A stretch of DNA of 64,000 bases from Lachnospiraceae bacterium (lineage in GTDB: Bacteria; Bacillota; Clostridia; Lachnospirales; Lachnospiraceae), in NCBI GenBank assembly GCA_017399445.1, contig JAFQCM010000105.1, forward strand, positions 1 to 64,000, read 5' to 3'. How positions within the stretch are numbered: position 1 is the first letter of the stretch; each line of letters begins with the position of its first letter. The notes under the pieces were generated by a model, which did not search any database, was not told the DNA's origin, and saw nothing but the letters and a program-made list of their open reading frames with translations. Position numbers and translations under genes: made by a program. This document shows, piece by piece, positions 5,156-59,262 of this stretch.

Positions 5156-5188
5156 TGGCATCAGCATAAATTAGAAATGAGGGAGTTT

Positions 5189-5893
5189 ATGTGGAACATT
5201 GGAATATGTGATGATGGGGTAAATACCTGTTCAGATATAGAAACTATGATTTTGGACTTTAGTGAAAGGTCAAGAGAAAAAGTTTGTGTAGAAATATGGT
5301 ATACTGGAGAGGCATTGTGTGAATATTTGACAAAGGGAAACAATCTGGATATTTTGTTTTTGGATATTGAACTTTGGAAAATGTCTGGTATTCAGGTTGG
5401 GAATTTTATTCGCAATCAGTTGGAAGACAGGGGAATGCAAATTATCTATATTTCAGGAAAACAATCTTATGCACCACAATTATTCAAAACACAACCGATG
5501 GATTTTTTGGTAAAACCTATTACACAAATCCAAATAGATGAGATTTTTCAATTAGCCGAAAAAATGCCTGCAAGAGGAAGACAAAAATTTGAATTTCAAG
5601 TAGGAAAAGAGTATTATTACGTACCACTTTCTGATATTTTTTACTTTAACAGTGATGGGAAAAAGATTACTTTGAAAACAAGAAGAGAAAAGTGGGTTTT
5701 TTATGGGAAATTAAAAGAGATTCTTGAAAAGTTACCAGAAAATTTCATGTTGATTCATCAGTCTTTTATCATCAATAGAGCTCATGTTTTTTTGTATGCT
5801 TATGAGATGGTTGAGATGGAAGATGGGACAAAAATAAATATTAGCAAAGCAAACCGGAAAAAAATTCGTCAGAAAATTTTAGAGAAAGGCTAG
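5189..5893 (+). CDS. LytTR response regulator (AgrA-like, module A)
   Basis: The protein has an N-terminal receiver (residues 1-~120) with acidic pocket CDDG and phospho-acceptor Asp59 in LFLDIE, and the receiver Lys in FLVKPI. A C-terminal LytTR DNA-binding domain (about 135-234) contains the typical IHQSFIINRAHV segment. It would be phosphorylated by the downstream kinase and activate target promoters. ATG 5189 places the conserved NIGICDD motif at the start; a GGGAG lies close upstream. ATG 5177 is an alternative. The kinase gene follows after 4 bp. It appears intact although both neighbours are damaged. Confidence 0.85.
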   Translation: MWNIGICDDGVNTCSDIETMILDFSERSREKVCVEIWYTGEALCEYLTKGNNLDILFLDIELWKMSGIQVGNFIRNQLEDRGMQIIYISGKQSYAPQLFKTQPMDFLVKPITQIQIDEIFQLAEKMPARGRQKFEFQVGKEYYYVPLSDIFYFNSDGKKITLKTRREKWVFYGKLKEILEKLPENFMLIHQSFIINRAHVFLYAYEMVEMEDGTKINISKANRKKIRQKILEKG

Positions 5894-5897
5894 AACA

Positions 5898-24058: not shown

Positions 24059-24784
24059 ATGCAGATAAATATAGGAATATGTGATGATGAAAAAGTGCTA
24101 TGTACACAATTAGAAGAAACATTAGCAGAAATACTTACAAAAGAAAAAGTGGAATATGAAATAGAGGTGTTCTGGACAGGTAAAAGTTTGTGTGAAAGTA
24201 TGAAAGAAATGAAATATGATTTAATATTTCTGGATATTGAGCTGCCGGATATGGACGGAATTGCTATAGGAAATTATATAAGAGAAACGTTGCATGATGA
24301 GCGGGTACAGATTGCATATATCTCTATGAAGGGAGAATATGCATTAAGACTTTTCGACTTTCGTCCTATCAATTTTCTGGTAAAACCATTAGACTGGGAA
24401 AAAGTGAAAAAGGTGATAGATAAATATCTGGTTCTGGCGGAAAATGGAATGCAGTTATTTACATATAAGAAAAAGTTCCAGTATTATAAAATTTCTTTGG
24501 AGGACGTTTTGTATTTTGAAAATAAGGGACGAAAAATTCATATTCATACACTGGATGGAAAACAGGATGATGAATTTTATGGTTCTATGGAGGATGTTTA
24601 TTCCAAAATAAAGAGAAATCAATTTTTGTTTATAAATCAGTCATTTATAGTTAATTTTCGATATATCAGCAGATATAAGTATGAATTTGTGGAATTAGTG
24701 AATGGAAAGGAACTGCCTGTCAGCCAGTCCCGAAGACCGACAATTCGGACTAGGTACTTAGAATTAGAGGAGGCTGAAATGTAG
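24059..24784 (+). CDS. LytTR response regulator (AgrA-like, module B)
   Basis: The 241-residue protein has a receiver domain (CDDEKV acidic pocket; phospho-acceptor Asp in LIFLDIELPDMDGIAIG; Lys in FLVKPLD) and a C-terminal LytTR domain with INQSFIVNFRYISRY. It resembles the module A regulator closely (GICDD, LDIE, GNYIRE). It would be activated by the kinase that starts at its stop codon, and its likely target is the agrD-agrB-subtilase operon just downstream. RBS AAGGGGGG precedes the ATG. Confidence 0.92.
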   Translation: MQINIGICDDEKVLCTQLEETLAEILTKEKVEYEIEVFWTGKSLCESMKEMKYDLIFLDIELPDMDGIAIGNYIRETLHDERVQIAYISMKGEYALRLFDFRPINFLVKPLDWEKVKKVIDKYLVLAENGMQLFTYKKKFQYYKISLEDVLYFENKGRKIHIHTLDGKQDDEFYGSMEDVYSKIKRNQFLFINQSFIVNFRYISRYKYEFVELVNGKELPVSQSRRPTIRTRYLELEEAEM

Positions 24785-26100
24785 TGGAAGAAGTTTTGAA
24801 TAATTTTACGTTGTTATTATCAAATGGGTTGGCAACGTATATTATATATCGGTTTATGCATGTGTTTTTTGAAAAGCGTGCGGTGGATAAGAAAGTGGCG
24901 GTATTGGCGTATGTGGTGCAGTATGTAATATCTGCTATTGGACTTGTCTGGGTTACATATCCAATAGTAAATGTGTTTATTGCACTTCTTTGCTATGGAA
25001 TTATTACATGGTGTTATGAGGGAACTTTTTGGAAAAAAATAACTGTTGTAGCAATTGGTTATTTAACTGGATTTATGGTAGAACTTTTTGTAATGTTTTT
25101 GATAAGTAAAGAAAGCATTCTACCCATGGAGAAACGACATTTCGATGCATATATTACAATTGTAATACAATGCATTATTTGGATTATTGTTTTGGTGATT
25201 GATAATTTTTTAAAACATGTTCAAAAAAGAGAAAATATACCTGTTTCTTTTGCAATTGCTATTGTGGGAGAGATGGTGATGATTATTATCTTAGAATTTT
25301 TGATTTTTCAACAAAACGGAATTAATAGTACTATTCGAATAGCATCTGTAATGGTTGTTACATTTATTTTTCTGATAATAATTTATTTGTATGCTTCATT
25401 AGCGACTATTGCAGAGGAACAGACAAAAAATCAGATGATAAAAAGAGAGAAAGATTATTATCACAAACAAGCAGAATTATTACAAAATAATAGTGAAGAA
25501 TTAAGAGAGTTCAGACACGATCTTAAAAATAAAATGCTAGTGTTATATGAACTGCTAGAGAAAAATGAAACAAGAGAAGCAGTTAATTATCTTCGGAAAT
25601 TGGCAGAAAGAATAGAACTAGTACAGACTTATAGCCAATCGGGAAATGTTGTAATAGATAGTATTATAAACTACAAATTAAGTCAGGCAGAAAAGCAAGG
25701 ATGTCGTATACAGACAGAGATTTTTTTGCCAAGTAAAATTTTAATAGAAGAAGATGATTTGATAGTTGTTATAGGAAATTTGCTGGATAATGCCATTGAG
25801 GCAATTGAAAAGTTAAAAGAAAATAAATATATTCAAGTAAAAATAAAATATGACAGAGGATGTTTACTTGTAAAAGTAGTAAATAGTTTTGACAGTCATG
25901 TGATAGTGAAAAAAGGAAAGTTACAAACCAGAAAAGGAAAACAAGAATTCCATGGAATAGGATTACAGAGCGTGCAAAATGTTGTGGACAAATATCAGGG
26001 AGAGTTGAAACTTACATATAAAGAGAAAATGTTTTCTGTAGGAGTCGTAATATATCCTAGAGAAGAATATGGCAGGTGCGATAAAAAAATTAAACTTTAG
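24784..26100 (+). CDS. AgrC-like GHKL sensor kinase (module B)
   Basis: This kinase (438 residues) begins at GTG 24784, overlapping the regulator stop by one base; GGAGG lies 10 bases upstream. About six or seven membrane segments fill residues 5-215. The phospho-acceptor helix has LREFRHDLKNKM, and the GHKL ATPase domain has N-box GNLLDNAIEAIE and G-box HGIGLQSVQNVVDKYQG. It would detect the module B autoinducing peptide at the membrane and phosphorylate the regulator. It is complete, unlike the module A kinase. Confidence 0.92.
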   Translation: MEEVLNNFTLLLSNGLATYIIYRFMHVFFEKRAVDKKVAVLAYVVQYVISAIGLVWVTYPIVNVFIALLCYGIITWCYEGTFWKKITVVAIGYLTGFMVELFVMFLISKESILPMEKRHFDAYITIVIQCIIWIIVLVIDNFLKHVQKRENIPVSFAIAIVGEMVMIIILEFLIFQQNGINSTIRIASVMVVTFIFLIIIYLYASLATIAEEQTKNQMIKREKDYYHKQAELLQNNSEELREFRHDLKNKMLVLYELLEKNETREAVNYLRKLAERIELVQTYSQSGNVVIDSIINYKLSQAEKQGCRIQTEIFLPSKILIEEDDLIVVIGNLLDNAIEAIEKLKENKYIQVKIKYDRGCLLVKVVNSFDSHVIVKKGKLQTRKGKQEFHGIGLQSVQNVVDKYQGELKLTYKEKMFSVGVVIYPREEYGRCDKKIKL

Positions 26101-26136
26101 TTTTTTACAAAACCATATATAAAAAATGACAACATT

Positions 26137-26165
26137 CGGCACAATAGAAAAAAATGTGATAGGAT
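26137..26165 (+). promoter_or_regulatory. Promoter-like element upstream of agrD (module B)
   Basis: CGGCACAAT (26137-26145), eight bases, then ATGTG-N-TA match the element at 3212-3240 with identical spacing. CGGCAC falls 17 bp from an extended -10 (TGA TAGGAT, ending 26165). The agrD start is 32 bp downstream. It would allow agrDB and the subtilase to be switched separately from the regulator-kinase pair. Confidence 0.5.
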
Positions 26166-26196
26166 AATGGCGTCGAAAGTGAGAGAGGAGATTATA

Positions 26197-26340
26197 ATGA
26201 AAAAAGGAAAAAAAATAATTTTAAAAGAAATGGCTAATTGGGCATATACAACAGCCAAAAAAGAAGCAAATTCTGTATGCTATGGATTTTTTTGTCAGCC
26301 TAAGCTTCCAGAAAAAGTAAAAAGCCTAAGAAAATGGTAA
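26197..26340 (+). CDS. agrD: AgrD-like autoinducing peptide precursor (module B)
   Basis: The 47-residue product follows a GAGAGGAG ribosome site. It has a Lys/Trp amphipathic leader (MKKGKKIILKEMANWAY), a core EANSVCYGFF, and a tail CQPKLPEKVKSL close to the module A tail QPKEPKEV. The ring Cys lies ten residues before the conserved Pro, as in Staphylococcus AgrD, so the predicted ring is CYGFF (inference). A second Cys follows the ring directly. The gene overlaps agrB by 7 bp. Confidence 0.88.
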   Translation: MKKGKKIILKEMANWAYTTAKKEANSVCYGFFCQPKLPEKVKSLRKW

Positions 26341-26912
26341 TGCTTAATCGAGTTACAGAGCATATAGTGACATATTTGGTACAACAAGGCGTAATAGAAA
26401 GTGAACAAAGAGAGATTTATTTTTATGGATTTCATAGGGGATTTGTGGATGGAATTAATATTATATCTCTCATCCTAATAAGTCTTTTCTTTGGACAACT
26501 ATTAGAAGCAGTTGTTTTTATTATAGCATTTCGGCTACTACGCAGTTATGCGGGTGGCTATCATGCAAAAACACAATGGCACTGCTATTTTCTTACCATG
26601 TTTACAATTGTTACTGCACTTTCGATAATCAAGTATATTAATGTAAGTATGATAGTAAGTGTAGCATTGTGGATGCTTTCAGGTGTGATAATTTTTCTAT
26701 GGTCACCAGTAGAGGCGGAGAACAAGCCGTTAGATGAAATAGAAATAAGAATCTATGGGAAAAAGGCAAAACTAATATTCCTTATGGAAACAATATGTTT
26801 TTTAGTAAGCCTTGCTTGTAATTGGATATCCATGTATGAGAGCATTTTGTTAGCAGTTATCTGTACAAGTATGTCATTGGTGGTTGCAAATGTGAAAAAG
26901 TTAAAAAGTTAA
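26334..26912 (+). CDS. agrB: AgrB-like autoinducing peptide protease (module B)
   Basis: The 192-residue membrane protein has the accessory gene regulator B layout: about five or six membrane segments and the conserved LLRSYAGGYHAKTQWHC segment. The catalytic His77 and Cys84 fall at the same numbers as in Staphylococcus AgrB. It would cut the AgrD tail and form the thiolactone. ATG 26334 overlaps the agrD stop; translation is probably coupled. The subtilase gene starts 25 bp after its stop. Confidence 0.93.
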   Translation: MVMLNRVTEHIVTYLVQQGVIESEQREIYFYGFHRGFVDGINIISLILISLFFGQLLEAVVFIIAFRLLRSYAGGYHAKTQWHCYFLTMFTIVTALSIIKYINVSMIVSVALWMLSGVIIFLWSPVEAENKPLDEIEIRIYGKKAKLIFLMETICFLVSLACNWISMYESILLAVICTSMSLVVANVKKLKS

Positions 26913-26937
26913 AAGTACAAATTTGAAAGAATATAAA

Positions 26938-28848
26938 ATGAAACGTAAAAAGATATTAACAAGTTTATTGGTTGCAGTGACAATTATGAGCCAACAAACA
27001 TTAGGAAATAGTTTAACATTAAATGCAGCAGAGAAACCGCAAAAAGCAAAAAATTCTGTTGAAAGAAGAGTTCCGCATGAAAGAGAATTTTCTAAAAAAG
27101 AAAAGAAATTAGTGGATAAAATTAAAGACACCTCCATGAAAGAAGGGAAAACAGCCGCCGAATTCTTAAATGAAGTAGATGATGAAGAAGTATATGAATA
27201 TGCTTTGAAAAATACATTGGAAGAGTTATATACAGATGATAATAACAGTGAATTAGAAGAATTTATTGATACAGTTGAAAGTAATCCAATAGCAGAAGAA
27301 GTGATTGAGGATTACCAAAAAGCAAAAGAAGAAAGAGAAAATGCAGAAAATTTGACATATGATGTAAACAGCATTATTATTGGATATAGTCCAAAAACAG
27401 AAGAAGAATATCTTGACAGCGTTGCAGAAGAGCAATTTGGAAATGTAGAACAAGTTGCAAAAACAGAAGAAAATATTGATGTAAGTGGTCTTACACAGAA
27501 AAAAGTGGAACAAATTAGAAATATAGATACAGAGGCAAAAGATGTAGTTGCTAAAGTTGAAATCTCAAAGGGACAAACAGTTGAACAGGCAATTGAAGAG
27601 TATAGCCAGTATGCGAATGTGGAATATGTACAGCCAAATTACAAAATTCCTGTAAGTAGTTTGACAGATGATACATACAGTGAGGAGCAATATTATTTAG
27701 ATAATATTAATATATCAGATGGATGGAATGCGGTTGAAGATTTTGGCTTTTATCAGACCTTTGTAGCAGTTATTGATACAGGAGCTCAAATGGATCATCC
27801 GGATTTGAAGAATGTATACATAAAAAAATATTGTGTGGATGCTACGCAAAGTGGTTATCCATTATTATCATCTTTAAGCACTCAATATACAGATTTTCAT
27901 GGAACAGCAGTAGCGGGTATTATTTCTGCAGAAGCTAATAATAGAAAAGGTATTGCAGGTGTTGGAACAGGTGTGGATAACGAGATGGCAAGAATTATGG
28001 CAATTAAATGTAGCACAAAGGCAGATTATTTGGATACTAATGCTATAATTAATGGAATTTATTATGCCGTAGATCATGGGGCTGATGTTATTAATATTAG
28101 TGCAGGCGGATATGAAACAACGGATGCTGAACAGGCAGCAATTAATTATGCTTATCAAAATGATGTTGTTGTAGTAGCTGCAGCAGGAAACGATAATACT
28201 AGCCAACCAATGTATCCGGCAAGTAGTGAGCATGTGATTTCTGTAGGGGCAACTAAGAGTAATAATAAAAAAGCAGATTTTTCAAATTACGGGAATTATA
28301 TTGATATTTCAGCACCAGGAGACTTTATATATACATGTGATGTTGGAAGTAGTTATACATGGGCTATTGGGACATCTTTTTCGGCACCTATTGTATCTGG
28401 AACAATTGCTATCATGAAAGCATATGGTGCTCTTTCTGTTGATGAAATAGAAAAGATTATTAAGAATACAGCTACAGATATAGGTACAAGTAATATGGGA
28501 GCTGGATTAATTAATAGTGGTTTAGCAATACAGCATACAAAATATTTGTCTTTTAAGAGTGAAAAGGAAGTAATAAATAGCATAAAAAGTACAAGTACAA
28601 AAGGAGGAATAAAAATAGGGTGGAGAGGCAATACTTCATCGGAAGGTTTTGTTATATATCGTTCCACAAGTAAAGATGGTACTTATAAAAGAATAAAAAC
28701 GATAACTAACAATGATACTACGTCCTATACCGATACAGGGTTAAAATCTGGAAAGACATATTACTATAAAGTTCGAGGTTATATGAAGTATAATGATGGT
28801 AAGAAATATTGCCAATATTCAACTGTTAAATCTGCAACGGCAAAGTAA
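26938..28848 (+). CDS. Secreted subtilisin-like serine protease with C-terminal Fn3 domain
   Basis: The 636-residue protein has a signal peptide (1-~32) and a long charged propeptide (to about 235) with an I9-like part. The S8 catalytic domain has the triad at Asp280 (VIDTGAQ), His321 (HGTAVAGI) and Ser480 (GTSFSAP). The last ~95 residues form a fibronectin type III-like domain (ends YYYKVRGYMK...VKSATAK). It is in the agrDB transcription unit, so it is probably quorum-controlled; it may be an exoenzyme or may trim the peptide signal. ATG 26938 gives the better signal peptide, although its ribosome site is weak. Confidence 0.9.
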   Translation: MKRKKILTSLLVAVTIMSQQTLGNSLTLNAAEKPQKAKNSVERRVPHEREFSKKEKKLVDKIKDTSMKEGKTAAEFLNEVDDEEVYEYALKNTLEELYTDDNNSELEEFIDTVESNPIAEEVIEDYQKAKEERENAENLTYDVNSIIIGYSPKTEEEYLDSVAEEQFGNVEQVAKTEENIDVSGLTQKKVEQIRNIDTEAKDVVAKVEISKGQTVEQAIEEYSQYANVEYVQPNYKIPVSSLTDDTYSEEQYYLDNINISDGWNAVEDFGFYQTFVAVIDTGAQMDHPDLKNVYIKKYCVDATQSGYPLLSSLSTQYTDFHGTAVAGIISAEANNRKGIAGVGTGVDNEMARIMAIKCSTKADYLDTNAIINGIYYAVDHGADVINISAGGYETTDAEQAAINYAYQNDVVVVAAAGNDNTSQPMYPASSEHVISVGATKSNNKKADFSNYGNYIDISAPGDFIYTCDVGSSYTWAIGTSFSAPIVSGTIAIMKAYGALSVDEIEKIIKNTATDIGTSNMGAGLINSGLAIQHTKYLSFKSEKEVINSIKSTSTKGGIKIGWRGNTSSEGFVIYRSTSKDGTYKRIKTITNNDTTSYTDTGLKSGKTYYYKVRGYMKYNDGKKYCQYSTVKSATAK

Positions 28849-45896: not shown

Positions 45897-46307
45897 GTGG
45901 TAAAAAAATTGAAAAAATGGATTCTATTGTTTATGTCAATGGTGCTCCTAAGTGGTTGCAGCATGCAGTCAGATGATAATAAGAAATTAGAAGATATCAA
46001 GTTTACAGTGTTAAGTGAGGACGAGATTCCAGAAGAATTAAAGACACAAATAGAAGAAAAGAAGCAGGAGGAATTTAAACTTACATATAGTGATGATGCT
46101 AATCTGTACATTGCAAGAGGATATGGAAAACAGGAAAGTGGTGGTTACAGTATTTCCGTAGATGAATTATATTTCACAGAAAATGCTGTTTTCATTCATA
46201 CGAGTCTGATAGGACCATCCCCATCAGAGCAGGTGGAGAATAGTGAAAGTTTTCCATATGTAGTTGTAAAAATGGAATTAACTGATAAAAATGTGGTGTT
46301 TGAGTAG
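45897..46307 (+). CDS. Small lipoprotein
   Basis: The 136-residue protein has a lipobox (LLSGC). The mature part is acidic and of unknown family (SEDEIPEELKTQIEEKKQEEFKLTY...). Similar small lipoproteins are often next to sipL-type genes in clostridia. The start is uncertain: GTG 45897, or TTG 45909 with AGGTGG upstream. It ends 9 bp before sipL and is probably cotranscribed. Confidence 0.8.
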   Translation: MVKKLKKWILLFMSMVLLSGCSMQSDDNKKLEDIKFTVLSEDEIPEELKTQIEEKKQEEFKLTYSDDANLYIARGYGKQESGGYSISVDELYFTENAVFIHTSLIGPSPSEQVENSESFPYVVVKMELTDKNVVFE

Positions 46308-48755: not shown

Positions 48756-50030
48756 TCAAATAATAAGTTGAAATTTGATATAGGTTTGCTGATTTATTTC
48801 AGTGTTTTCCAAATAGAGCTCACCACGCAATTCCTGAACATATTTATTTAATTTATACAATCCTATACCATGACAAGTAGGATTGGTGCATTTTGTGGTA
48901 TAGTTTCGGCTAAAAATGTTTTTGCAGAATTCAGGTGTAAGAGTAGTTCCTGGATTTTGGATTTGAAAAATCAATTTATTATGTTTGGAAGAAATTTTGG
49001 CATAAATATTGCCATGAATAGGCGTGGCATCTAATGCATTATCAATTAATATACCAATATATTCAATGATTTCATATTCTGTACATTGTGTTTGGAGATA
49101 ATAACTGCCAATTTCAATGTGAAGAGATTTATGATTGTGTTGAGCTTCTAAGCTTTTACTAACAAGGAAACCTGCGACAAGATGCATGTTTAATTTTAAT
49201 AGTAAAGACTGAATATCCGGCAGCAGATAATGCTCTGTAGTGTCTAAAAGAGAATTTTTTAGAGATTCATAATCAGTACAGGAATATCCTAAAGAACGTA
49301 TACTTTGAATATTATTGTGATAATCATGTTGGCGAAAGCGTACCTGTTCAATTAGATTTTCAATAATAGGAAGATAGGTTTGATAAGCTTCCAACTGTTT
49401 TTGACGTTCTAAGGATTTTTTGTGATTAGTAAAAACTTCACCATTTAGAAATACTAAAACAATTATAACTAAAAATACCATAAGATAATTTTGAAAAAAA
49501 TTTTCAGTTTTAAATAAAACAAAAGAGGCACATCCCCAAATTAGAAGGAATGAATTTAGTATAATAACTAAAAAAGTGTTATTTCGCTGTGACAGAAGTT
49601 CATAAAAGGTTGATAGTGGAAGAATGTGATATGCTATAAGTGTAATCAAAAGTACAAAAAACAAACCTATATATTGAAACAGGCTGTGGTGAACAGAAGC
49701 AGCATTCAATCCAAATAGTGGAAGAAGTAGTAATTCCAATATTATTAACAAAGAATATTCTATAAGATAAAGAAAAGACATATGAAGAAAAGAAACTTTA
49801 GTAGTTATGCAGAAGTAAGCAATAATGAGTAGAGAGCTAAGCAAAAAAGAAATAGGGTAACTTGTAATGCTATAGTTTATAGAAATACATAATATCAAAG
49901 TCAATATTCCATAAAGTATGGTTTGAATTTTAGGAAAAAGTGAATAATCTAAAAAGCCACAAGTTAAAATATAAAAACTTACAATTTCTATAGCAGATTG
50001 TAAAAAGGTATTGATAAACTCTAAAAACAT
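48756..50030 (-). CDS. AgrC-like GHKL sensor kinase (module C)
   Basis: The 424-residue kinase has about six or seven N-terminal membrane segments (to residue ~200), a phospho-acceptor region RFRQHDYHNNIQS, and a GHKL ATPase domain with N-box GILIDNALDATP and G-box HGIGLYKLNKYVQELRGE. ATG 50030 overlaps the regulator stop and is preceded by GGAGG; ATG 50045 is an alternative. It is more distant from the kinases of modules A, B and D. Divergent from agrB-agrD, it would read their peptide. Confidence 0.9.
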   Translation of the reverse strand: MFLEFINTFLQSAIEIVSFYILTCGFLDYSLFPKIQTILYGILTLILCISINYSITSYPISFLLSSLLIIAYFCITTKVSFLHMSFLYLIEYSLLIILELLLLPLFGLNAASVHHSLFQYIGLFFVLLITLIAYHILPLSTFYELLSQRNNTFLVIILNSFLLIWGCASFVLFKTENFFQNYLMVFLVIIVLVFLNGEVFTNHKKSLERQKQLEAYQTYLPIIENLIEQVRFRQHDYHNNIQSIRSLGYSCTDYESLKNSLLDTTEHYLLPDIQSLLLKLNMHLVAGFLVSKSLEAQHNHKSLHIEIGSYYLQTQCTEYEIIEYIGILIDNALDATPIHGNIYAKISSKHNKLIFQIQNPGTTLTPEFCKNIFSRNYTTKCTNPTCHGIGLYKLNKYVQELRGELYLENTEINQQTYIKFQLII

Positions 50031-50746
50031 GTATGCATCCTCCACATCTCTTCAAACTTTGTTTTGTGACTCCGACCAAGAGGGATAGCTTGGGTATCAA
50101 GATAAATAGTATGGTGTGTGCGGTCGTAAGAAGTGATCTTATTAATATTAATTAGGTATTTGCGATGGCATCGAAAGAAACTGTGCCGTAAGGCATGTTC
50201 TAGTTGCTCCATAGTATAATCTAAAGTTTCATAAGGACCATTGTCGGTTACGATATAAAGTCGATGGTTTTTATATGGGCAAAAGTAACAAATGTTATTT
50301 TCTGGAATACGCAATGTTCCCCCCCAATAATTGGTAAAAGTAAAAGATGGTGGTTCCATTAATGGAGAGTGGAGTAATAAATTCAAACAGTTTTCAATAT
50401 CTAATGCTGAGTAGGGTTTTAAAATATAACGAAAGCAGTTGGTGTCAGATAGTGCCTGTTGTACCATTTCAGGAACAGAAGTAATAAAAACGATAGGTGT
50501 ATATAGATAAGTTGGAATAGAACGTATTTTGATACCAAGTTGTAATCCATCTTCAGCAGGATTCCACGTTTCTTCTAATTTTAAATCTAAAAAGAATAAA
50601 TCAAATTTTTCAGTTGTAATAAATGTTAATGCAGTATGATAGTTGTCTGCAGTTTGTATGACAAAATTTTCATTATAGTTTTCTAAAATATGGTAAAGAG
50701 CAGATAGCTGTTCCTCTTCATCTTCCACGACTAATATGTTATACAT
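50021..50746 (-). CDS. LytTR response regulator (AgrA-like, module C)
   Basis: The 241-residue protein has a receiver (VVEDEEEQ; phospho-acceptor in FFLDLKLEE; Lys in YILKPYS) and a LytTR domain with CHRKYLININKI and ending near PLGRSHKTKFEEMW. The receiver has a short insertion after the phospho-acceptor (ETWNPAEDG). RBS (GGAGAATA on the minus strand) precedes ATG 50746. It is transcribed away from agrB, leaving a 161-bp shared control region. Confidence 0.92.
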   Translation of the reverse strand: MYNILVVEDEEEQLSALYHILENYNENFVIQTADNYHTALTFITTEKFDLFFLDLKLEETWNPAEDGLQLGIKIRSIPTYLYTPIVFITSVPEMVQQALSDTNCFRYILKPYSALDIENCLNLLLHSPLMEPPSFTFTNYWGGTLRIPENNICYFCPYKNHRLYIVTDNGPYETLDYTMEQLEHALRHSFFRCHRKYLININKITSYDRTHHTIYLDTQAIPLGRSHKTKFEEMWRMHTCF

Positions 50747-50824
50747 AATATTCTCCTAATCTAATAAAAAAGATAATATAAGTATAAGATAAGAAAAAGG
50801 TTGATGTCAATTAGATAAAATGTT

Positions 50825-50855
50825 GTTCAAGAATGAAATGTTGCCGTTCGCGATT
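50825..50855. promoter_or_regulatory. Direct repeat with 21-bp period upstream of agrB (module C)
   Basis: GTTCAAGAAT (50825) and GTTCGCGATT (50846) are spaced exactly 21 bp, two helical turns, as for AgrA-type LytTR direct repeats. They lie 18 bp upstream of the agrB -35 element. Confidence 0.5.
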
Positions 50856-50872
50856 AAGGTGGAAATAATGTA

Positions 50873-50900
50873 TAGACAAAAAGAAATAAATTAGTATACT
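50873..50900 (+). promoter_or_regulatory. Promoter of agrB-agrD (module C)
   Basis: TAGACA (50873-50878) and TATACT (50895-50900), each one base from consensus, are 16 bp apart. Transcription would start within a base or two of the agrB ATG at 50908, predicting a leaderless mRNA. Confidence 0.5.
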
Positions 50901-50907
50901 GTTGCAT

Positions 50908-51486
50908 ATGGAAAGGATAAATGGATACTTAGCAAAACATTTTATAGAAAAACTGAATAACTATAAAAATTATAATGAGAATCAGATGATTAAGATAACA
51001 TATGCTTTTTGTGTATTAGCAGGGGAAATGGAAAAGCTACTTTTACTGATTATTATATTTAGTATTGTCGGGAAAGGATATGCGTTTTTTATTATTATGG
51101 TGGCACTATTTTGTAGTAAACACTATGTAGGGGGAATTCACATGAAAACAGTTGCTACTTGTTTTATAGCTTCATTGATTGCAATAGCAGTTATCATTTT
51201 TATGGGCGAAAAATTTATTTTTCAAAGTGAACAAAAGATGTTTATTTATATACTGAGTATACTTCTTATGTACTTTTTTGCACCGATGTATTCAGAAAAT
51301 CGTGTAATAACAAATAGAAAGAAAGTAAAAATCAAAGGAATATGTGCAGCATTCATGATGGGAATTTTTGGTGCGATTGTTGGAGGGGTCACAGAGCAGT
51401 ATATAGTATGGACACTTTTGCTAATAAATATAGAGATAGTGATAGGTTCTATTATGTACTATCGAAAAGAAAGGAGGAAGCAGTAA
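50908..51486 (+). CDS. agrB: AgrB-like autoinducing peptide protease (module C)
   Basis: The 192-residue membrane protein has about five or six membrane segments and the conserved SKHYVGGIHMKTVATC segment, with catalytic His78 and Cys85. It would process the AgrD encoded directly downstream. ATG 50908 has no visible ribosome site and lies at the predicted transcription start. Here agrB precedes agrD, the reverse of modules A and B. Its stop overlaps the agrD start by one base. Confidence 0.92.
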   Translation: MERINGYLAKHFIEKLNNYKNYNENQMIKITYAFCVLAGEMEKLLLLIIIFSIVGKGYAFFIIMVALFCSKHYVGGIHMKTVATCFIASLIAIAVIIFMGEKFIFQSEQKMFIYILSILLMYFFAPMYSENRVITNRKKVKIKGICAAFMMGIFGAIVGGVTEQYIVWTLLLINIEIVIGSIMYYRKERRKQ

Positions 51487-51668
51487 TGCTGAAAGAACAT
51501 ATGATTGTTAAGGTGGGTGAGATCTTGGAAAAAGCATCACTTGAATTAGCAGAAAGTACGGGATGTATTTTTACTATCTGGGGTGAAACAGAGCTGCCAG
51601 ATTGCATAAGGAAAGAGCTAGAAGAAAAAAATCGAAAATTAAGAAGTAGAACAAAATACAAAATCTAG
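51486..51668 (+). CDS. agrD: AgrD-like autoinducing peptide precursor (module C)
   Basis: This 60-residue product follows AGGAGG and overlaps agrB by one base. The leader is amphipathic (MLKEHMIVKVGEILEKASLEL), the core is ESTGCIFTIWG, and the tail ETELPDCIRKELEEK carries the acidic/Pro pattern of AgrB recognition sites. The distance from Cys to Pro is one residue longer than in modules A and B, so the ring may be CIFTI or CIFTIW. The C-terminal tail (to KYKI) is longer and more basic than usual. Confidence 0.82.
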   Translation: MLKEHMIVKVGEILEKASLELAESTGCIFTIWGETELPDCIRKELEEKNRKLRSRTKYKI

Positions 51669-51680
51669 GAGGAATAAATC

Positions 51681-52196
51681 ATGAGTAAAAGTAGAATTAT
51701 TAAAACAATTATATCATTTGCATTAGCAGTTATAGTATGTTGTGGATTTACCAATCAGGCAAAGGCAAGTACAAATAATAGTCATTTGCCAGAAGGTTGG
51801 AAAAGCTTGGGGTTAAATGAATTATCAAAGGAACAGATAGAAGAAATAAATAATAGTATTCAACCAATGGCAGCAGCACCAGGACTTTCTTCAGTGCAGA
51901 TTACAGATTTAGCATTAGATGAGAACAACGAAATTCATGTGGAAGTTAAGGTTATGGGAACAGCAAAAAGCTTGTTAGTATGGTGGGATAACATACAGTG
52001 CAAAGAAAATAATAATGAAACTATAAATATTGTTGGGTCTGATAATATTATTGTGGGTGCTTATAGATATTTCCATACTGGATGTTATTATTCTGAAGAC
52101 GTATCACAAACAGTGCATTCAGTACAAGCACAGGCAATCAATGCAATGAATCCATGGAACACTATATCAACTTCGAAAACTTTTACTTTACCATAA
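51681..52196 (+). CDS. Secreted protein of unknown function (module C)
   Basis: The 171-residue protein has a signal peptide (1-~30, ending NQAKAS) and a mature part with PEGWKSLGLNELSKEQIEEIN, then a beta-rich region with two or three Cys. It starts 13 bp after agrD with AGGAGG, so it is probably the first quorum-controlled output of the module, as the interrupted gene at 3280 may have been for module A. I do not recognise the family. Confidence 0.8.
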   Translation: MSKSRIIKTIISFALAVIVCCGFTNQAKASTNNSHLPEGWKSLGLNELSKEQIEEINNSIQPMAAAPGLSSVQITDLALDENNEIHVEVKVMGTAKSLLVWWDNIQCKENNNETINIVGSDNIIVGAYRYFHTGCYYSEDVSQTVHSVQAQAINAMNPWNTISTSKTFTLP

Positions 52197-52323: not shown

Positions 52324-52941
52324 ATGCAAGTAGGAAATATAACAAATACAAACTATTTATATCAAACAGGAAGTGCAGTACAAAGTAAAACAGAATGTTC
52401 ATTTGAAATGTCAGCATCAATAGAAAAAATTGACTGTGAAACAGAAGGTGAGTTTCTCGGTATCACCATGATTCCAGAGGAAGGGCAGTCAATGGTTTAT
52501 GGGATGCGGGCAATGCTACCAAAAGAATCTACAGCCAGCAATCCTATTGTTCAAGTAGTATCGAATCTGGAAGGAAAATATGAAGTATATAACATTGAAA
52601 TTAACAAAATAGATCCGGAAAATGCTACAAGAATGGAAATGTTTGCTTTGTGCAGTTACGAAGATAAGTTCGGAGAAGGCACAGGCAGTACCTTTGGTTC
52701 TTTTCACACGTTTCGAGTGTATGAAGAACTTGCCTCTCAGAATGGATGTACCAAACAGATAAAAGAATATGATTCTTCATGGGAACAATTTCAAAATGAA
52801 AAAGTAAATTGGGTAGAGTTGTGTAATCAGGTATGTGAGTCACTAAAAAACTCTAAAGATACAGAGATTCTTGATTTATTTGTGAAAGGCAAACGATTGC
52901 AAGAGTTGTATTCGAAATATGCAAAAAATGCAGAAATATAA
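52324..52941 (+). CDS. Uncharacterised cytoplasmic protein (module C)
   Basis: The 205-residue protein has no signal peptide or membrane segment. It begins MQVGNITNTNYLYQTGSAV, a polar N-terminus of the same style as the genes at 3784 and 59272, followed by an alpha/beta region with IDPENATRMEMFALCSYEDK. The RBS CAGGAGGGG is strong. A terminator follows. It may be cotranscribed with the agr genes. Family unknown. Confidence 0.75.
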   Translation: MQVGNITNTNYLYQTGSAVQSKTECSFEMSASIEKIDCETEGEFLGITMIPEEGQSMVYGMRAMLPKESTASNPIVQVVSNLEGKYEVYNIEINKIDPENATRMEMFALCSYEDKFGEGTGSTFGSFHTFRVYEELASQNGCTKQIKEYDSSWEQFQNEKVNWVELCNQVCESLKNSKDTEILDLFVKGKRLQELYSKYAKNAEI

Positions 52942-52978
52942 ACAAATAATAGATAATAAACAAAATATTTAAAAGTGG

Positions 52979-53010
52979 GGGGGCTGTCAAACTAAGACAG
53001 CTCCTTTTTA
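52979..53010 (+). terminator. Intrinsic terminator between modules C and D
   Basis: GGGGCTGTC pairs with GACAGCTCC around a seven-base loop, followed by TTTTTA. Confidence 0.85.
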
Positions 53011-53139
53011 CAAGTTGAGAACAAATATGTATGGGAATATTAACGATAAAATATTGAATATTCTATATAAAAATATTAAAATAAATAGGAGGTAGTTTTA
53101 AAACAATATATTATGAGTTTTATGAAAAAAGGAGAGAAA

Positions 53140-53865
53140 ATGTTAAAAATAGCAATTTGTGATGACGATGAGTATTTTCTTAAAAAAGAAAGAGCTTTAA
53201 TAAAAAAATACTTGGAAAAAAATGAGTATGATTATGAAATATTCACTTATACATCAGGAAAAAAATTATTAGAAGAAAAAGAAAAAATTACAGAATACCA
53301 GATCATTTTTTTGGATATAAACATGGAAGAAATTGATGGGATGAAAACAGCAGAAGTGATTAGAAAATACAGCATAGATACATATCTGGTTTTTGTAACT
53401 GCTTTTATTACATATGCAATTGAAGGATATAAAGTAGAAGCAGTAAGATACTTGTTAAAAGATGATAAATGTTTTAATGAAGCAATTATTGAATGCTTTG
53501 AAACTATTCTGAATAAGATGAATTATAGGGAAAAAAAGCAGTTTTTTGAATTTCAGGAAGGGGAGAAAGAAATTTCATTAAAAGATATTATATATATTGA
53601 AAGCGATCTTCATAAATTGATATTTCATTTAACAAAAGGAAAAATTCGAAAATATACTATGTATGCTAAATTGAATTCGATAAATGAGAGTTTAAAAGAG
53701 TGTGGATTTTGTAGGATACATCAAAGTTTTCTTGTAAATCTAAAATATGTAGAGAAAGTAGAAAGATATAAAGTAGAACTTTGGAATAAAAAAACACTCA
53801 ATATTGCAAAAAAAAGATACTCAGAAGTTAAAAGTGAGTTTATATATTATAGGGGGAGTATGTAA
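53140..53865 (+). CDS. LytTR response regulator (AgrA-like, module D)
   Basis: The 241-residue protein has a receiver (AICDDDEYF; Asp in IIFLDINMEEIDGM) and a LytTR domain with CRIHQSFLVNLKYVEKV. The usual receiver Lys is in RYLLKDD rather than the common KP. ATG 53140 follows AAAGGAGAGAA and starts at the conserved LKIAICDDD. The kinase gene overlaps its stop by one base. Its likely targets are the secreted protein and ABC genes downstream. Confidence 0.92.
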   Translation: MLKIAICDDDEYFLKKERALIKKYLEKNEYDYEIFTYTSGKKLLEEKEKITEYQIIFLDINMEEIDGMKTAEVIRKYSIDTYLVFVTAFITYAIEGYKVEAVRYLLKDDKCFNEAIIECFETILNKMNYREKKQFFEFQEGEKEISLKDIIYIESDLHKLIFHLTKGKIRKYTMYAKLNSINESLKECGFCRIHQSFLVNLKYVEKVERYKVELWNKKTLNIAKKRYSEVKSEFIYYRGSM

Positions 53866-55184
53866 TGGGAGGAGAGTATATTTATGGTATTTTCTCCACT
53901 GTTTGGTATGTGATTTTATGTGAAATTTTTACCGAAACTTTTGTAGGTAAGTCAGTTCGTAAAAAGTGGAACTACATATGGATTGTTATTTGGTGCATTT
54001 TAAATTATGGTATTACAATTATTTTGAAAAAACAATTATTTCTAAAATCGCTCATAGTTATATTGATAGGAAGCATTGTATTATATTTATATTTTAAGCA
54101 GGATTACATAAAAATGCTAGTTTTGGCGTGCTTGTATCAAGGTTGCAATTTTGTAGTTGATTATACAGTGTTAAATTTGATGATTAAAATTTTTCCAACA
54201 CTAATACAGCAAACATTGTCCGAAACATTGATAGCTTCTATGTTGGGACTGGTAAGTCAAGTTATAATTTTTTGTTTTGTAATGGCACTTAGAAAGTTTT
54301 TTTTAAAAGAATGGGGAGAGGTGTTGTCTTCAAAAGATTGGATGTATTTTTCCATATTTCCATTTTTTACTATCATATCCATTACATTGATTGTTATGAA
54401 TTTTGAGATAATTCAAAATAGAAAACAGGGTAATGTTCTTTTGTGTATTGCACTAGGACTGGTTGTTATGAATCTGCTCGTTTTTTATTTAATCAGAGGT
54501 ATTTTAGAACGCGAAAAACAGATACAAGAAGATAAATTGTTTAAAGCGCGAGTGGAAAATGAAACAAAGATGTATCATTCTATCTCTGAAAATTATGACA
54601 AGCAGTGTAAAAGAGAACACGAATATAAGAATCAATTATCATGCATTGTAGCACTTACTCGGGAGGGGAAAATTCAGGAATTGAGCAGGTATATAGAGAA
54701 GTTTGACCAGGAAATTAATAATAAAATCAATTCTATAGATACTAATAATGTGATTGTTAATGCAATACTTAACTCTAAGTATCAGGAAACTAGAAGAAAA
54801 AATATTTTATTTATTGTAAAAATCAATGATTTATCAGAATTACATATAGAAGATGAAGATATTGTTGTGATTCTATCAAACTTATTGAATAATGCTATTG
54901 AAGCGTGTGAGCAATGTGAGAAGAAATATATAAAATTGAAGTTTATACAAAATGAAAAAGAAACAATTATTTCTGTTGCAAATTCTCATAATAATAATTT
55001 TAGAATGCAAGATGGAAAGTATCAGACAAGTAAAGTAGTGGTGGGGGAAAAACATGGAATTGGAATCGAGAATATTAAGGAAACAGTTGAAAAGTATAAG
55101 GGGGATTGTGTGATTAGGCATAATGATAAAGAATTCTGTTTTTCAATATTGATAAAAAATGAAGAATCTAATTACATTAAGTAA
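53865..55184 (+). CDS. AgrC-like GHKL sensor kinase (module D)
   Basis: This kinase (439 residues) has six or seven membrane segments (to ~215), a phospho-acceptor region KREHEYKNQLSCI, and GHKL motifs SNLLNNAIEACE and HGIGIENIKETVEKYKGD. No agrB or agrD is found next to it, so either it reads a peptide made elsewhere (for example by module C, 1.5 kb upstream) or another exported molecule. It is complete. Confidence 0.9.
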   Translation: MGGEYIYGIFSTVWYVILCEIFTETFVGKSVRKKWNYIWIVIWCILNYGITIILKKQLFLKSLIVILIGSIVLYLYFKQDYIKMLVLACLYQGCNFVVDYTVLNLMIKIFPTLIQQTLSETLIASMLGLVSQVIIFCFVMALRKFFLKEWGEVLSSKDWMYFSIFPFFTIISITLIVMNFEIIQNRKQGNVLLCIALGLVVMNLLVFYLIRGILEREKQIQEDKLFKARVENETKMYHSISENYDKQCKREHEYKNQLSCIVALTREGKIQELSRYIEKFDQEINNKINSIDTNNVIVNAILNSKYQETRRKNILFIVKINDLSELHIEDEDIVVILSNLLNNAIEACEQCEKKYIKLKFIQNEKETIISVANSHNNNFRMQDGKYQTSKVVVGEKHGIGIENIKETVEKYKGDCVIRHNDKEFCFSILIKNEESNYIK

Positions 55185-55205
55185 TCAAAAGAATAAAAAC
55201 TGCCT

Positions 55206-55236
55206 TTTTCTGCAATAATTTGGCGTTTTCTGCAAT
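55206..55236. promoter_or_regulatory. Direct repeat upstream of the module D secreted gene
   Basis: TTTTCTGCAAT occurs at 55206-55216 and 55226-55236, a perfect 11-bp direct repeat with a 20-bp period, about 55 bp before the start codon. This arrangement suits a LytTR dimer and is the probable target of the module D regulator. Confidence 0.6.
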
Positions 55237-55291
55237 TGGTATAGAAAAATAATGTAAAATGGTAGAAAATGTAAGTGAAGGAGGAAAAGAC

Positions 55292-55666
55292 ATGAGAAAA
55301 AAAATAGTATCTTTAGCCATGGCATTAGCAATGGTAACATCAGTAGTAACAGTAGGTAGTACAGAAGCAAAGGCAGCAGATGCTTCATGGAGTCTTCGAT
55401 ATATTGCACACGCTGAAACTTCAGCAAATGTAACTAGTTGGAGCAAAAATGTTGTTGCAACAAAAGTAACTACTACAATGTATGTAGATACTGTTGGAGG
55501 TGGAGCTACTGTTTATGCTGGAAGCAATAGTGGACTTGCAAAAACATATACCGCAAGAGGTTCACAATCTGCTAGTGCATCTGTAGGACAAAAAATATAT
55601 GCAACAGCATATTATACAAACTATGGAACCTCTAACAATTTCCCAAGTGGTTATATATCATACTAG
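55292..55666 (+). CDS. Small secreted protein of unknown function (module D)
   Basis: The 124-residue precursor has a signal peptide (1-~28, ending AKAA) and a mature part of about 95 residues rich in Ser, Thr, Ala, Tyr and Gly, probably all-beta (SWSLRYIAHAETSANVTSW...). RBS GAAGGAGG. A small exported protein followed by a lipoprotein and an ABC exporter is the layout of bacteriocin or toxin/immunity loci such as lactococcin 972-type clusters, but I see no firm family match. It is the first gene under the direct repeat. Confidence 0.75.
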   Translation: MRKKIVSLAMALAMVTSVVTVGSTEAKAADASWSLRYIAHAETSANVTSWSKNVVATKVTTTMYVDTVGGGATVYAGSNSGLAKTYTARGSQSASASVGQKIYATAYYTNYGTSNNFPSGYISY

Positions 55667-55675
55667 GTGAGAATT

Positions 55676-56896
55676 ATGAAGCGGGTAGGGATAATAACCT
55701 TACTTCTTCTCGCAAGCAGCCTGACACTATCAGCGTGTCAGGCTGTTCCTGATGAAGTAAAGGAAGCACAAAAAGGATATCAGGACAATAAGCAGATTGA
55801 AAGTGCAGAAGTTGCCTATTGTAATGTAGAGGAATTGGAAAAATCAGTAGAAGAAGCACTAAAATTGCAGCCAGACAATATGATTTTGCCAAAAACAGTA
55901 GATTTTAGCCAAATAGAGGAAGTAGATACACTGACATTAGAATTTCAGGGAGATTTTCTAAAGAACAAAGAGCAGGTAGCAGAAGCATTTGGATGCACAG
56001 GCAGTGATTGGGAAAATGTAACTATAGATACCGCAGGTTATGAAACATGGTCCTTAGACCATAATCAGGAAGAATATTTCATAAATGTAGGGGACAATGG
56101 TTTTACGGCAGCAATACTTCCTAATGTTTATGAAGGATTTTTTGAAGAAGATAAGACACAGGTAAAGAAGGTATATCGATTAGGTAGAACAGCTGATATG
56201 CAGGAAGAATGTGTGCTTTCCGGGGAAACCACTACAATTGCAGAACAGATGGAATTTGTAAACAACTGGTTTCAGAACACATGGAAGTGGAAAGAAGAGA
56301 GGCTTGACTATCAGGTGAGAACAGTGATATTAAGGGAAGATGAAAAAAATGGAGAAATGCTGTCCATGGAGGTAGGAAAGAAATATCAGGGTATCTTATT
56401 GGATAATTGTGGTGGAGAAATGGATATTGATACAATCAACGGCGAAACAAAATTGTTAAATATTGGAACCGGGTTTTATATTGCACAGACAGAGAAAAAC
56501 ACCATAGACTATTTTACTAGTGGGCAGGGTGCTTTCGATATAAAAGAAGCTGTGAAGCAGGAAACATTTATTGATTTACCAAGTGCAGTACGACTTGTAG
56601 AAAAAGAACTGTCTGGATTTCAGAAAGTAAACATTTCAGAGATACAAATTATTTATATGTTACAGCCTGTATATGAAAACGAAAATGAAAGTGAGGATTA
56701 TTCCGCACCAGGAAAACAGGTGAAAGGAACGCCGGTATATCGTTTTTATATTGACCGTACTTATGAGGACATCGGTTTTTTTTGAATTGATGATAGCAGT
56801 CTTGATTATTTTATTAATGTAGATATGTTAACAGGAGAAATTTCTTTGAATTTATCCATGGCAGCCTATAATACACAGGGGCAGGAGGAAAAGTAG
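55676..56896 (+). pseudogene. Lipoprotein with premature TGA (module D)
   Basis: ATG 55676 follows AGGTGAGA; a lipobox LSAC is visible. The frame reaches TGA at 56783-56785 (369 residues), right after a run of eight T. The same frame stays open for 36 more codons (IDDSSLDYFINVDMLTGE...) to TAG 56894, two bases before the next ATG. The downstream part reads as protein, so the TGA is probably a nonsense change that trims the C-terminus; most of the protein could still be made. Linked to the ABC genes, it may be an immunity or substrate-binding partner. Family unknown. Confidence 0.65.
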
Positions 56897-56897
56897 T

Positions 56898-57713
56898 ATG
56901 AAAACAGTCCGAAGTTTTATATGTGAAATGAAACAGATTGTTATAAGTATGCCTTTTCTTGTCAGTTGTATGATTGTAACCATATTGGAATTCACAGCTG
57001 GATTTTATCTGACAGGTGATGGAAAGGAATTATCTATATTGGAAGTATTAATTAGTTTTTCCAGAGAAGATATGGAGAAAAATGTGCTTTTCAGTTCTTT
57101 TGCAGCATTTGAGTCTGGTGTGGGAAGCTGGCTTAAGTTATTTGTTCCAATTATTGCAACTCTTCCTTTTGTAGCATTGTTTAGGGATGAAACCTCTACC
57201 GGATATCGACGGTTTCGTATTGTATCGGAAGGAAAAGTACGATATTGTATGGTGAAAATTTTAACATGCTTTTTCAGTGGGGCTCTTACTTTGACAATTG
57301 GAACGCTACTATTTTCCCTAATGACAGGAATTTTCTTTCCGTCTGTCCAACAATTTGATAAGGAAAGCATTCATTTGATTCTGGCACCTTATGGCACAAA
57401 TAGTATTGCGCTTATAATGCTTTGCCAGTTTCTTATGATATTTTTATATGGAGGATTTTGGGGCAGTATCTGTCTAGGATTGGTAGGAGCAGTAAAGAAT
57501 AAATATCTTATTGTAGGAATTCCTTTTATGCTGAAATATATGTGGCAGCAGTACATAGATAAAATAGATGGAATGGGACCGGATACTTTACTTTATGCTT
57601 TTCAGGAAAAGAACTCAATATTTGGTATACTGATTGTTTATGGCATTATACTGGCAATAAGTGTACTGGTATTTTTAGTTGCAATGGGAAGAAAGGAGGA
57701 TATCGGTGTCTGA
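56898..57713 (+). CDS. ABC-2 type permease subunit 1 (module D)
   Basis: The 271-residue protein has about six transmembrane helices and no catalytic motif. The layout (short N-terminal helix, FVALFRDETSTGYRRFRIVSEGK loop, then helices) resembles ABC-2 permeases of lantibiotic-immunity or drug exporters. The following gene encodes a second permease, overlapping by eight bases, and then the ATPase, so a heterodimeric transporter is likely. RBS GGAGGAAAAG. Confidence 0.8.
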   Translation: MKTVRSFICEMKQIVISMPFLVSCMIVTILEFTAGFYLTGDGKELSILEVLISFSREDMEKNVLFSSFAAFESGVGSWLKLFVPIIATLPFVALFRDETSTGYRRFRIVSEGKVRYCMVKILTCFFSGALTLTIGTLLFSLMTGIFFPSVQQFDKESIHLILAPYGTNSIALIMLCQFLMIFLYGGFWGSICLGLVGAVKNKYLIVGIPFMLKYMWQQYIDKIDGMGPDTLLYAFQEKNSIFGILIVYGIILAISVLVFLVAMGRKEDIGV

Positions 57714-58575
57714 AATATCATTAAAAAAGATTTGGGCAATCACTAAAACAGAATATATAAAGTGGATATGTAATGGAAGAATGTATCTTTTGCTTATTCT
57801 TTGGGTATTCCTTAATGAATGTGTCATGGAACCACTGATAGCACGAAGTGAGAAGATGGAGACACCATTAAATATTTTAGAACCTTTTCTTGCTATAGGA
57901 AATTCCGGGATTGTTGTATTAATTCTGCCACTGATATATTTAACTTTAATATCCGATTTTCCAAAAGTAGATGGAAATACTATATTTTTGCTTCCAAGAG
58001 TTGGAAAAAGGAACTGGTTTCTTGGACAGGTTTTATTTGCTATAGCAAGTTTTCATACAATATTGATTCTTGTATTGGCAGGTTCAATCCTTCCAGTGGC
58101 ACATTGTTCCTTTATATATAATGGATGGAGTCTGGTAACAACAGAATATGAGTTAAGATTTCCGGAAGAAGCAGGGAGTTATGCATCAGAATTACTGCAG
58201 AAAAATTTGTACAATCAGATGCCACCATGGAAAGCAGCAATTTTAACCTATCTTTTTTTAGGAGCATATATGTTGCTATTGGTGTTAATTATGTTGCTGT
58301 TTCAGATATTAAAAAAGAAGATTTTTGGTTTTTTCTGTTGTGGTGCATTAATTACTTTTGGAACCGCTTTTTGTGGGATTCATGCAGATGCCAAGTGGCT
58401 TTTTCCTATGGCACATTCCCTAATTTGGGTCCACTATAACGATTATGAAAGAAAGATGGTTATGCCGATAAGGTATAGTGTAATTTATTATGCAGTATGG
58501 ATTGCAGGACTTTTCATAGCATGTGTGATTGGTATGAGAAAGATAAATTTTGATACCATACAGGAGGTGGATTAA
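57706..58575 (+). CDS. ABC-2 type permease subunit 2 (module D)
   Basis: The 289-residue protein has about six transmembrane helices. Its start is GTG 57706, with AAAGGAGGA a few bases upstream; an ATG at 57679 would lie before the ribosome site. It overlaps the first permease and abuts the ATPase start (stop 58573-58575, next ATG 58576). Confidence 0.8.
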   Translation: MSEISLKKIWAITKTEYIKWICNGRMYLLLILWVFLNECVMEPLIARSEKMETPLNILEPFLAIGNSGIVVLILPLIYLTLISDFPKVDGNTIFLLPRVGKRNWFLGQVLFAIASFHTILILVLAGSILPVAHCSFIYNGWSLVTTEYELRFPEEAGSYASELLQKNLYNQMPPWKAAILTYLFLGAYMLLLVLIMLLFQILKKKIFGFFCCGALITFGTAFCGIHADAKWLFPMAHSLIWVHYNDYERKMVMPIRYSVIYYAVWIAGLFIACVIGMRKINFDTIQEVD

Positions 58576-59220
58576 ATGGCAGAAGTAATGGTAAAAGTGC
58601 AGGAGCTTTTTCTTGAAATGAAAAAAGACAGTATATTAAAAGGAATTTCCAGTGAATTTGAACAGGGAAAAATTAATGGATTAATCGGAAGAAACGGTTC
58701 TGGTAAAACGATGCTTATGAAATGCATCTGCGGATTTGTGAAGCCTACCAAGGGAAGTATTCAGGTTCAGGGAAAAGTAATTGGAAAAGACAGAGATTTT
58801 CCGGAAAGTTTAGGGCTTATTATAGAAACACCGGGATTTATTCCATATTATAGTGGTTATAAGAATTTGAAGATATTGGCAGAGCCTAATGGAAAAATCG
58901 GAAAAGAAGAGATTATGGAAGCAATGAAATGTGTAGGAATAGCAGAAGCGGCTCACCGCAAGGTGGGAAAATATAGCCTTGGGATGCGACAAAGACTCGG
59001 TATCGCCCAGGCAATTATGGAAAATCCGCAACTATTGATTTTGGACGAGCCATTTAATGGATTAGATAAAGAAGGGGTAGAAGATATAAGAAAAGTACTC
59101 TTTAATTTGAAGGAACAGGGAAAAACCATTATTTTGGCATCTCATAATGGGGAAGATATTAATTTATTATGCGATACTGTTTATGAAATGGAAAAAGGAA
59201 TGATAAAAAAGATTTGTTAA
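58576..59220 (+). CDS. ABC transporter ATPase (module D)
   Basis: The 214-residue protein has Walker A GRNGSGKTM, signature YSLGMRQRLG, and Walker B LLILDEPFNGLD. The signature SLGMRQR type is typical of ATPases of ABC-2 exporters such as antibiotic immunity systems. It is the last gene of the module D operon; RBS AGGAGGTGG and a terminator follow. Confidence 0.93.
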   Translation: MAEVMVKVQELFLEMKKDSILKGISSEFEQGKINGLIGRNGSGKTMLMKCICGFVKPTKGSIQVQGKVIGKDRDFPESLGLIIETPGFIPYYSGYKNLKILAEPNGKIGKEEIMEAMKCVGIAEAAHRKVGKYSLGMRQRLGIAQAIMENPQLLILDEPFNGLDKEGVEDIRKVLFNLKEQGKTIILASHNGEDINLLCDTVYEMEKGMIKKIC

Positions 59221-59233
59221 AATAATCAAAATA

Positions 59234-59262
59234 GGGGATGCCATCCGGCATCCCCATTTAGA
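59234..59262 (+). terminator. Intrinsic terminator after module D
   Basis: GGGGATGCC (59234-59242) pairs perfectly with GGCATCCCC (59247-59255) around a four-base loop. The T-run is short (ATTTAG). It lies between convergent genes and may act both ways. Confidence 0.75.

Follow-up and report, generated by a model that had tools for sequence, protein, structure and literature searches.

A candidate family of secreted antibacterial proteins in gut Clostridia, paired with a lipoprotein and an ABC-2 transporter

Gene organisation of the locus

The window analysed here is a 64,000-nucleotide stretch of a Lachnospiraceae bacterium, a gut bacterium (assembly GCA_017399445.1, contig JAFQCM010000105.1, positions 1 to 64,000 of the + strand). 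At 53140–59220 it carries seven genes, all on the + strand, which encode in this order a response regulator (RR), a kinase (HK), a small secreted protein (SP), a lipoprotein (LP), two membrane proteins (P1 and P2) and an ATPase; the Pfam and NCBIfam searches and the open reading frames confirmed the content and order proposed in the initial annotation. RR (53140–53865) is of the LytTR DNA-binding type (Pfam LytTR 1.8e-16, Response_reg 4.5e-14). HK (53865–55184) is an AgrC-like membrane histidine kinase with hydrophobic segments in its N-terminal part and a GHKL domain (Pfam HATPase_c_5/GHKL 8.8e-26), although its match to the NCBIfam AgrC model (9.6e-14) falls far under the model cut-off. A search of 52900–55350 found neither AgrB nor AgrD beside the pair, as had been noted before.

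SP (55292–55666) is a 124-aa precursor supported by homologues, and LP (55676–56785) has the lipobox LSAC and is cut by an in-frame TGA. P1 (56898–57713) is an ABC-2 type membrane protein by its hydrophobic segments and conserved position (Pfam ABC2_membrane_4 at E=0.094 only), and P2 (57706–58575), another such protein supported by family alignments, begins with GTG and overlaps P1 by 8 bp. Together with the ABC ATPase (58576–59220; ABC_tran 5.4e-31), they form the pair of overlapping permeases plus ATPase that had been described.

An intrinsic terminator on the + strand at about 52975–53010 (hairpin of −18.1 kcal/mol, z −4.3, followed by U5) directly precedes RR and parts the operon from the gene at 52324–52941 and from an upstream Agr module, here module C. 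A terminator had also been proposed at the operon end. The hairpin at 59234–59255 is genuine (z −5.3), but its U-run is better on the − strand and favours the opposite-strand gene, suggesting a shared terminator at best.

SP is a small cationic protein of no recognised family

SP has a classical signal peptide, with MRKK, a hydrophobic core and the site AKA|AD, which leaves a Cys-free mature protein of about 96 aa (10.1 kDa, pI 9.2). The view that it belongs to no recognised family was upheld: the 19 family members gave no convincing Pfam match and no NCBIfam match, and the SP profile gave no significant match against the PDB. The predicted model (pLDDT 48) is unusable and has no recognisable toxin fold. 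PDB sequence matches of SP were restricted to designed beta-propellers, whose sequences are repetitive, and were taken as composition matches. A scan of viral contigs found no relative, and tblastn against plasmids gave a single weak match that was unrelated. TMcin was compared as well and is unrelated by gene content.

LP has a predicted YycI-like fold and an in-frame TGA

The in-frame TGA of LP (56783–56785) costs 36 C-terminal residues. Beyond it the frame stays open for 36 codons (56786–56896) to a TAG at 56894–56896, HMM matches run across the TGA, and the extension aligns with full-length relatives; the TGA is therefore read, from these alignments, as a nonsense codon rather than the natural end, or as a sequencing error beside a T8 run. 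As LP carries this codon, the window copy of the module may be impaired and perhaps is not fully functional.

With the TGA read as a residue for structure modelling only, LP gave a good model (pLDDT 81.6), whose listed structure matches include 5COZ (E 2.5e-9) and YycI (E about 1e-5), and neither NisI nor SpaI was among the 50 matches listed. YycI is a regulator of the kinase that senses the cell wall. The entry 5COZ is EUBREC_2869, a solved but uncharacterised protein of Eubacterium rectale that shares the fold predicted for LP. Neither the LP family (30 members) nor the P1 family (nine members) gave a convincing Pfam match, and no NCBIfam family was found for either. A further LP-profile match in the window (45897–46307) was weak, covered the N-terminal 74 residues only and was not counted as LP.

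The transporter ATPase is closest to those of lantibiotic self-protection

The model TIGR03740 (lantibiotic protection) was the best in all five ATPases scanned, and the window ATPase scored 169.1 bits against it, below the cut-off of 309.75. It scored 131 bits against a PmtC-type model and 97 bits against TIGR03608 (lactococcin 972 transporter; cut-off 254.85). P1 of the window matched no relevant NCBIfam model, and the P2 family had none at E<=0.01 in 15 members and no convincing Pfam match, so neither permease is recognised as LanE/LanG-type.

The title of the initial annotation suggested that the transporter exports SP. The genes do adjoin, and ABC-2 exporters of unmodified peptides exist, as the PmtC-type score recalls. 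However, SP bears a standard Sec signal peptide, which needs no dedicated exporter, and many loci that have no SP nevertheless conserve the transporter. We thus consider export of SP by the transporter very improbable; given the signal peptide, P1, P2 and the ATPase more likely serve self-protection.

The module recurs across Clostridia

Searching at the family level revealed SP relatives in the sister species G276, in G292 (two copies) and in G083, each followed by LP, P1, P2 and the ATPase. RR and HK precede SP in one of the G292 copies and in G083, the latter also with AgrB. Using the ATPase as an anchor in GTDB contigs, we collected 80 loci; profile searches showed that most of these carry LP, P2 and the ATPase together, P1 lying in between, and the LP–P1–P2–ATPase set recurs in gut Clostridia. 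LP profiles run on a sample of Clostridia genomes, with six candidates scored per genome, gave few matches.

An iterated SP profile recruited members at nine loci (L061, L087, L049, L044, L047, L024, L058, L034 and L026) and weaker ones at L098, L068, L084, L039 and L048; weak matches in L005–L008 and L017–L019 were left out. In most of the recruited members the signal peptide is followed by a W/F-x-L-R...GAPSS segment. SP immediately precedes LP, save at L024, where it follows the ATPase. Of the 45 loci with 2.5 kb or more of upstream sequence, 15 have SP directly upstream, often bearing GAPSS. The proposed linkage of an Agr-type pair to a lipoprotein, an ABC-2 transporter and a small exported protein is thus a recurrent arrangement among relatives, and its presence in unrelated loci places it beyond chance. 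Judged by these comparisons, RR-HK-SP-LP-P1-P2-ATPase is a conserved module rather than a chance grouping.

Small secreted proteins of another type, about 141–147 aa long and with a TKIEITQTLQ... segment, were seen near the LP module (L029:1786-2229, L039:6121-6546 and L052:1056-1487); they fall outside the SP family.

The SP-free LP–ABC sets have an ECF-sigma-like gene upstream in 13 of 30 cases, and this gene is rarer at SP loci, a difference that is not significant (p=0.19). SP-free modules with such a gene about 1.2–1.7 kb upstream were seen at L025, L050, L051, L053, L059, L062, L065, L078, L079 and L089. From their gene content, SP-free sets with an ECF sigma gene are possible stand-alone resistance modules. 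It could be argued that the whole system is an envelope-stress or antibiotic-resistance module, in which LP and the transporter detoxify peptides of foreign origin and SP has an accessory role, for instance as a decoy. The many copies without SP, close to ECF sigma genes, agree with this, whereas SP is specifically paired with LP and tied to Agr genes, and a decoy need not co-diverge with the lipoprotein; we regard such a role as rather improbable.

SP and LP diverge and duplicate together

Over 18 loci, SP and LP distances are correlated (Mantel r=0.61, p=0.0002), and the correlation is unchanged after correction for P2 or the ATPase, while SP and ATPase distances at the same loci show none. 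When close clades are removed, the SP–LP correlation is r=0.27 (p=0.028). At two loci the SP–LP pair is doubled as a unit over one transporter, with copies 56% (SP) and 61% (LP) identical at L048 and 58% and 59% at L098. Between the window and the sister, divergence is much faster in SP (47% identity) and LP (48%) than in P2 (71%) and the ATPase (77%). The dN/dS values for this comparison, 0.19 for LP and 0.10 for P2, are rough since synonymous sites are near saturation. These sequence measures suggest that SP and LP are cognate partners.

In the sister G276, the SP start codon and upstream region are gone, and full-length LP, P1, P2 and ATPase are still readable, with P1 in one frame by tblastn. 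An apparent deletion at this site (L010:7900-8250) fuses the SP remnant to the end of the preceding gene. To judge from the sequence that remains, this would look like loss of a toxin with immunity retained. The co-divergence, the joint duplication and the loss of SP with LP and the transporter kept would all fit a toxin with its self-protection.

The first two observations would suit any ligand–receptor pair. SP might instead be a signal or matrix protein and LP its receptor, with the transporter in sensing or envelope traffic and no killing involved, and the likeness of LP to YycI, which acts on a wall-sensing kinase, points the same way. Such an arrangement poorly explains a LanF-like ATPase, SP-free copies by ECF sigma genes, and the loss of SP where LP and the transporter are kept, and we consider it unlikely.

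An Agr link and LytTR-type repeats upstream of SP

One relative (L034) has an unbroken RR-HK-AgrD-AgrB-SP-LP-P1-P2-ATPase run, and this complete run suggests that the Agr link is a repeated arrangement. Another (L058) has HK, AgrB, SP, LP, P1, P2 and the ATPase, and at L068 the agr genes are divergent from SP-LP-P1-P2-ATPase. Agr-type genes occur at 5/15 SP loci versus 1/30 others (Fisher p=0.012, with loci partly non-independent); one of the five (L023) is counted on an opposite-strand AgrB-like match.

In the gap between HK and SP, an 11-bp direct repeat, TTTTCTGCAAT, occurs twice on the + strand with a period of 20 bp (55206–55236). It was equalled by 1 in 5000 simple shuffles and 1 in 500 dinucleotide shuffles, and is the sole exact copy in the genome. 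Distinct 10-of-10 repeats at 21–22 bp occur at loci L011, L058 and L075 (0/500 shuffles); those of L012, L026 and L068 are weaker, equalled by 16–32 of 500 shuffles, and the same shuffle test found no such repeat at L034 and L047. LytTR regulators bind 9–11-bp direct repeats 11–13 bp apart, bacteriocin promoters included (PMC6193735). As the repeat before SP has this target layout, it is a probable regulator site, and SP is likely under the control of the adjacent LytTR regulator, whose binding here is predicted.

It had been suggested that the peptide of module C supplies the controlling signal. Module C has its own divergent RR/HK, its kinase is 22% identical to the HK of the SP operon, and a terminator lies between; control by module C is therefore unsupported. 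The genome has four AgrB matches, three of them on the same contig, and each sits in a module with its own kinase.

Module C (48756–52196) consists of an RR/HK of a distinct type, AgrB, an AgrD-like peptide (STGCIFTIWGETELPDC) and a 171-aa secreted protein of no family. An AgrB–AgrD pair paralogous to that of module C, with divergent RR/HK and the AgrD STCMFLWGEVEMPEC, is found in G000 on C41 (L117:2014-4936). The window also has a complete Agr module at 24059–26912, with RR, HK, AgrD (NSVCYGFFCQPKLPE; ORF 26167–26340) and AgrB (26334–26912), followed by a large secreted protein (26923–28848). A further Agr module at 4819–7139 has a 50-aa AgrD (4819–4971) and intact RR/HK; the AgrB of module A (4859–5155) is about 99 aa and looks truncated.

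A model for the SP operon

The explanation we favour, and hold to be probable with moderate confidence, is that the operon encodes an unmodified antibacterial protein with LanI/LanFEG-like self-protection, run by the adjacent two-component system. SP would leave the cell via Sec, be cut after AKA, and act extracellularly against bacteria, as a cationic protein that is unmodified and probably beta-rich. Its cognate partner at the cell surface would be the lipoprotein LP, which together with the LanFEG-like P1-P2-ATPase might shield the producer by capturing SP at the membrane or expelling it there. The neighbouring HK may sense an extracellular, probably peptide, signal, upon which the LytTR regulator would bind the direct repeat before SP and switch on SP-LP-P1-P2-ATPase. 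In this model the sequences show the gene content, its conservation, the Agr/LytTR link, the repeat, the SP–LP pairing and the loss of SP in a sister that keeps LP and the transporter; we infer the antibacterial activity, the self-protection, the regulator binding and the identity of the signal.

Loci with LP and the transporter and without SP, often by an ECF sigma gene, are as expected of stand-alone resistance and speak for antagonism. We count against it the absence of a recognisable toxin fold in SP, the YycI-like fold of LP, the ATPase score under the lantibiotic cut-off and the weaker SP–LP correlation once close clades are removed. Furthermore, a nonsense codon in LP is not to be expected in a cell that makes an active toxin, unless the transporter suffices or the codon is a sequencing error.

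More broadly, the comparisons could define a new family of unmodified, Sec-secreted antibacterial GAPSS-motif proteins of gut Clostridia. Self-protection would come from a YycI-fold lipoprotein that is paired with each protein and diverges along with it, and from a shared ABC-2 transporter; Agr/LytTR would often control the module, and ECF sigma factors would control the copies that serve as stand-alone resistance. On this broader reading we are evenly divided. If true, gut Clostridia use a secreted protein family that escapes precursor-based bacteriocin scans: these look for precursor or enzyme families already known, and neither Pfam nor NCBIfam has a model for SP, LP, P1 or P2. The LP-P1-P2-ATPase set would then be a searchable anchor, the SP–LP pairing would predict which lipoprotein guards against which SP, the LytTR repeats would link production to peptide signalling, and the YycI-like fold would gain a role beyond kinase regulation.

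Comparison with known systems

The lactococcin 972 family (PF09683) comprises Sec-type small proteins adjoining an ABC transporter (TIGR03608), and SP is likewise a Sec-type small protein beside an ABC transporter. However, PF09683, which has been named as an unmodified bacteriocin (PMC13289728), matched 0/19 SP members, and the score of the ATPase against TIGR03608 given above is far from its cut-off. EntV (enterococcin V583, ef1097) of Enterococcus faecalis resembles SP in having a Sec-secreted unmodified precursor under Agr-type control, by Fsr (PMC6606811). EntV requires a disulfide and GelE cleavage, whereas SP is Cys-free and has no recognised similarity to it, and the linked lipoprotein–ABC set distinguishes the SP operon.

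The SP operon shares with Agr systems a LytTR regulator and an AgrC-like kinase, AgrB/AgrD in several relatives, and LytTR-type direct repeats before the target operon, at which binding is predicted; it differs in that the window RR/HK pair has no adjoining agrBD.

LanI and LanFEG form the known self-protection architecture of lantibiotics such as nisin, subtilin and gallidermin (PMC4828448). As in these systems, a surface lipoprotein, two ABC-2 permeases and one ATPase lie by a gene for a secreted, here putatively antibacterial, protein and a two-component system (PMC4828448), and TIGR03740 is the best match of the window ATPase. Unlike them, the SP operon has no annotated lanthipeptide precursor or modification enzymes, its ATPase is under the cut-off, its permeases match no NCBIfam model, and its lipoprotein is YycI-like, with NisI and SpaI absent among the 50 matches listed. 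By the tests applied LP-P1-P2-ATPase is not a member of this group, yet by analogy it probably works like LanI/LanFEG.
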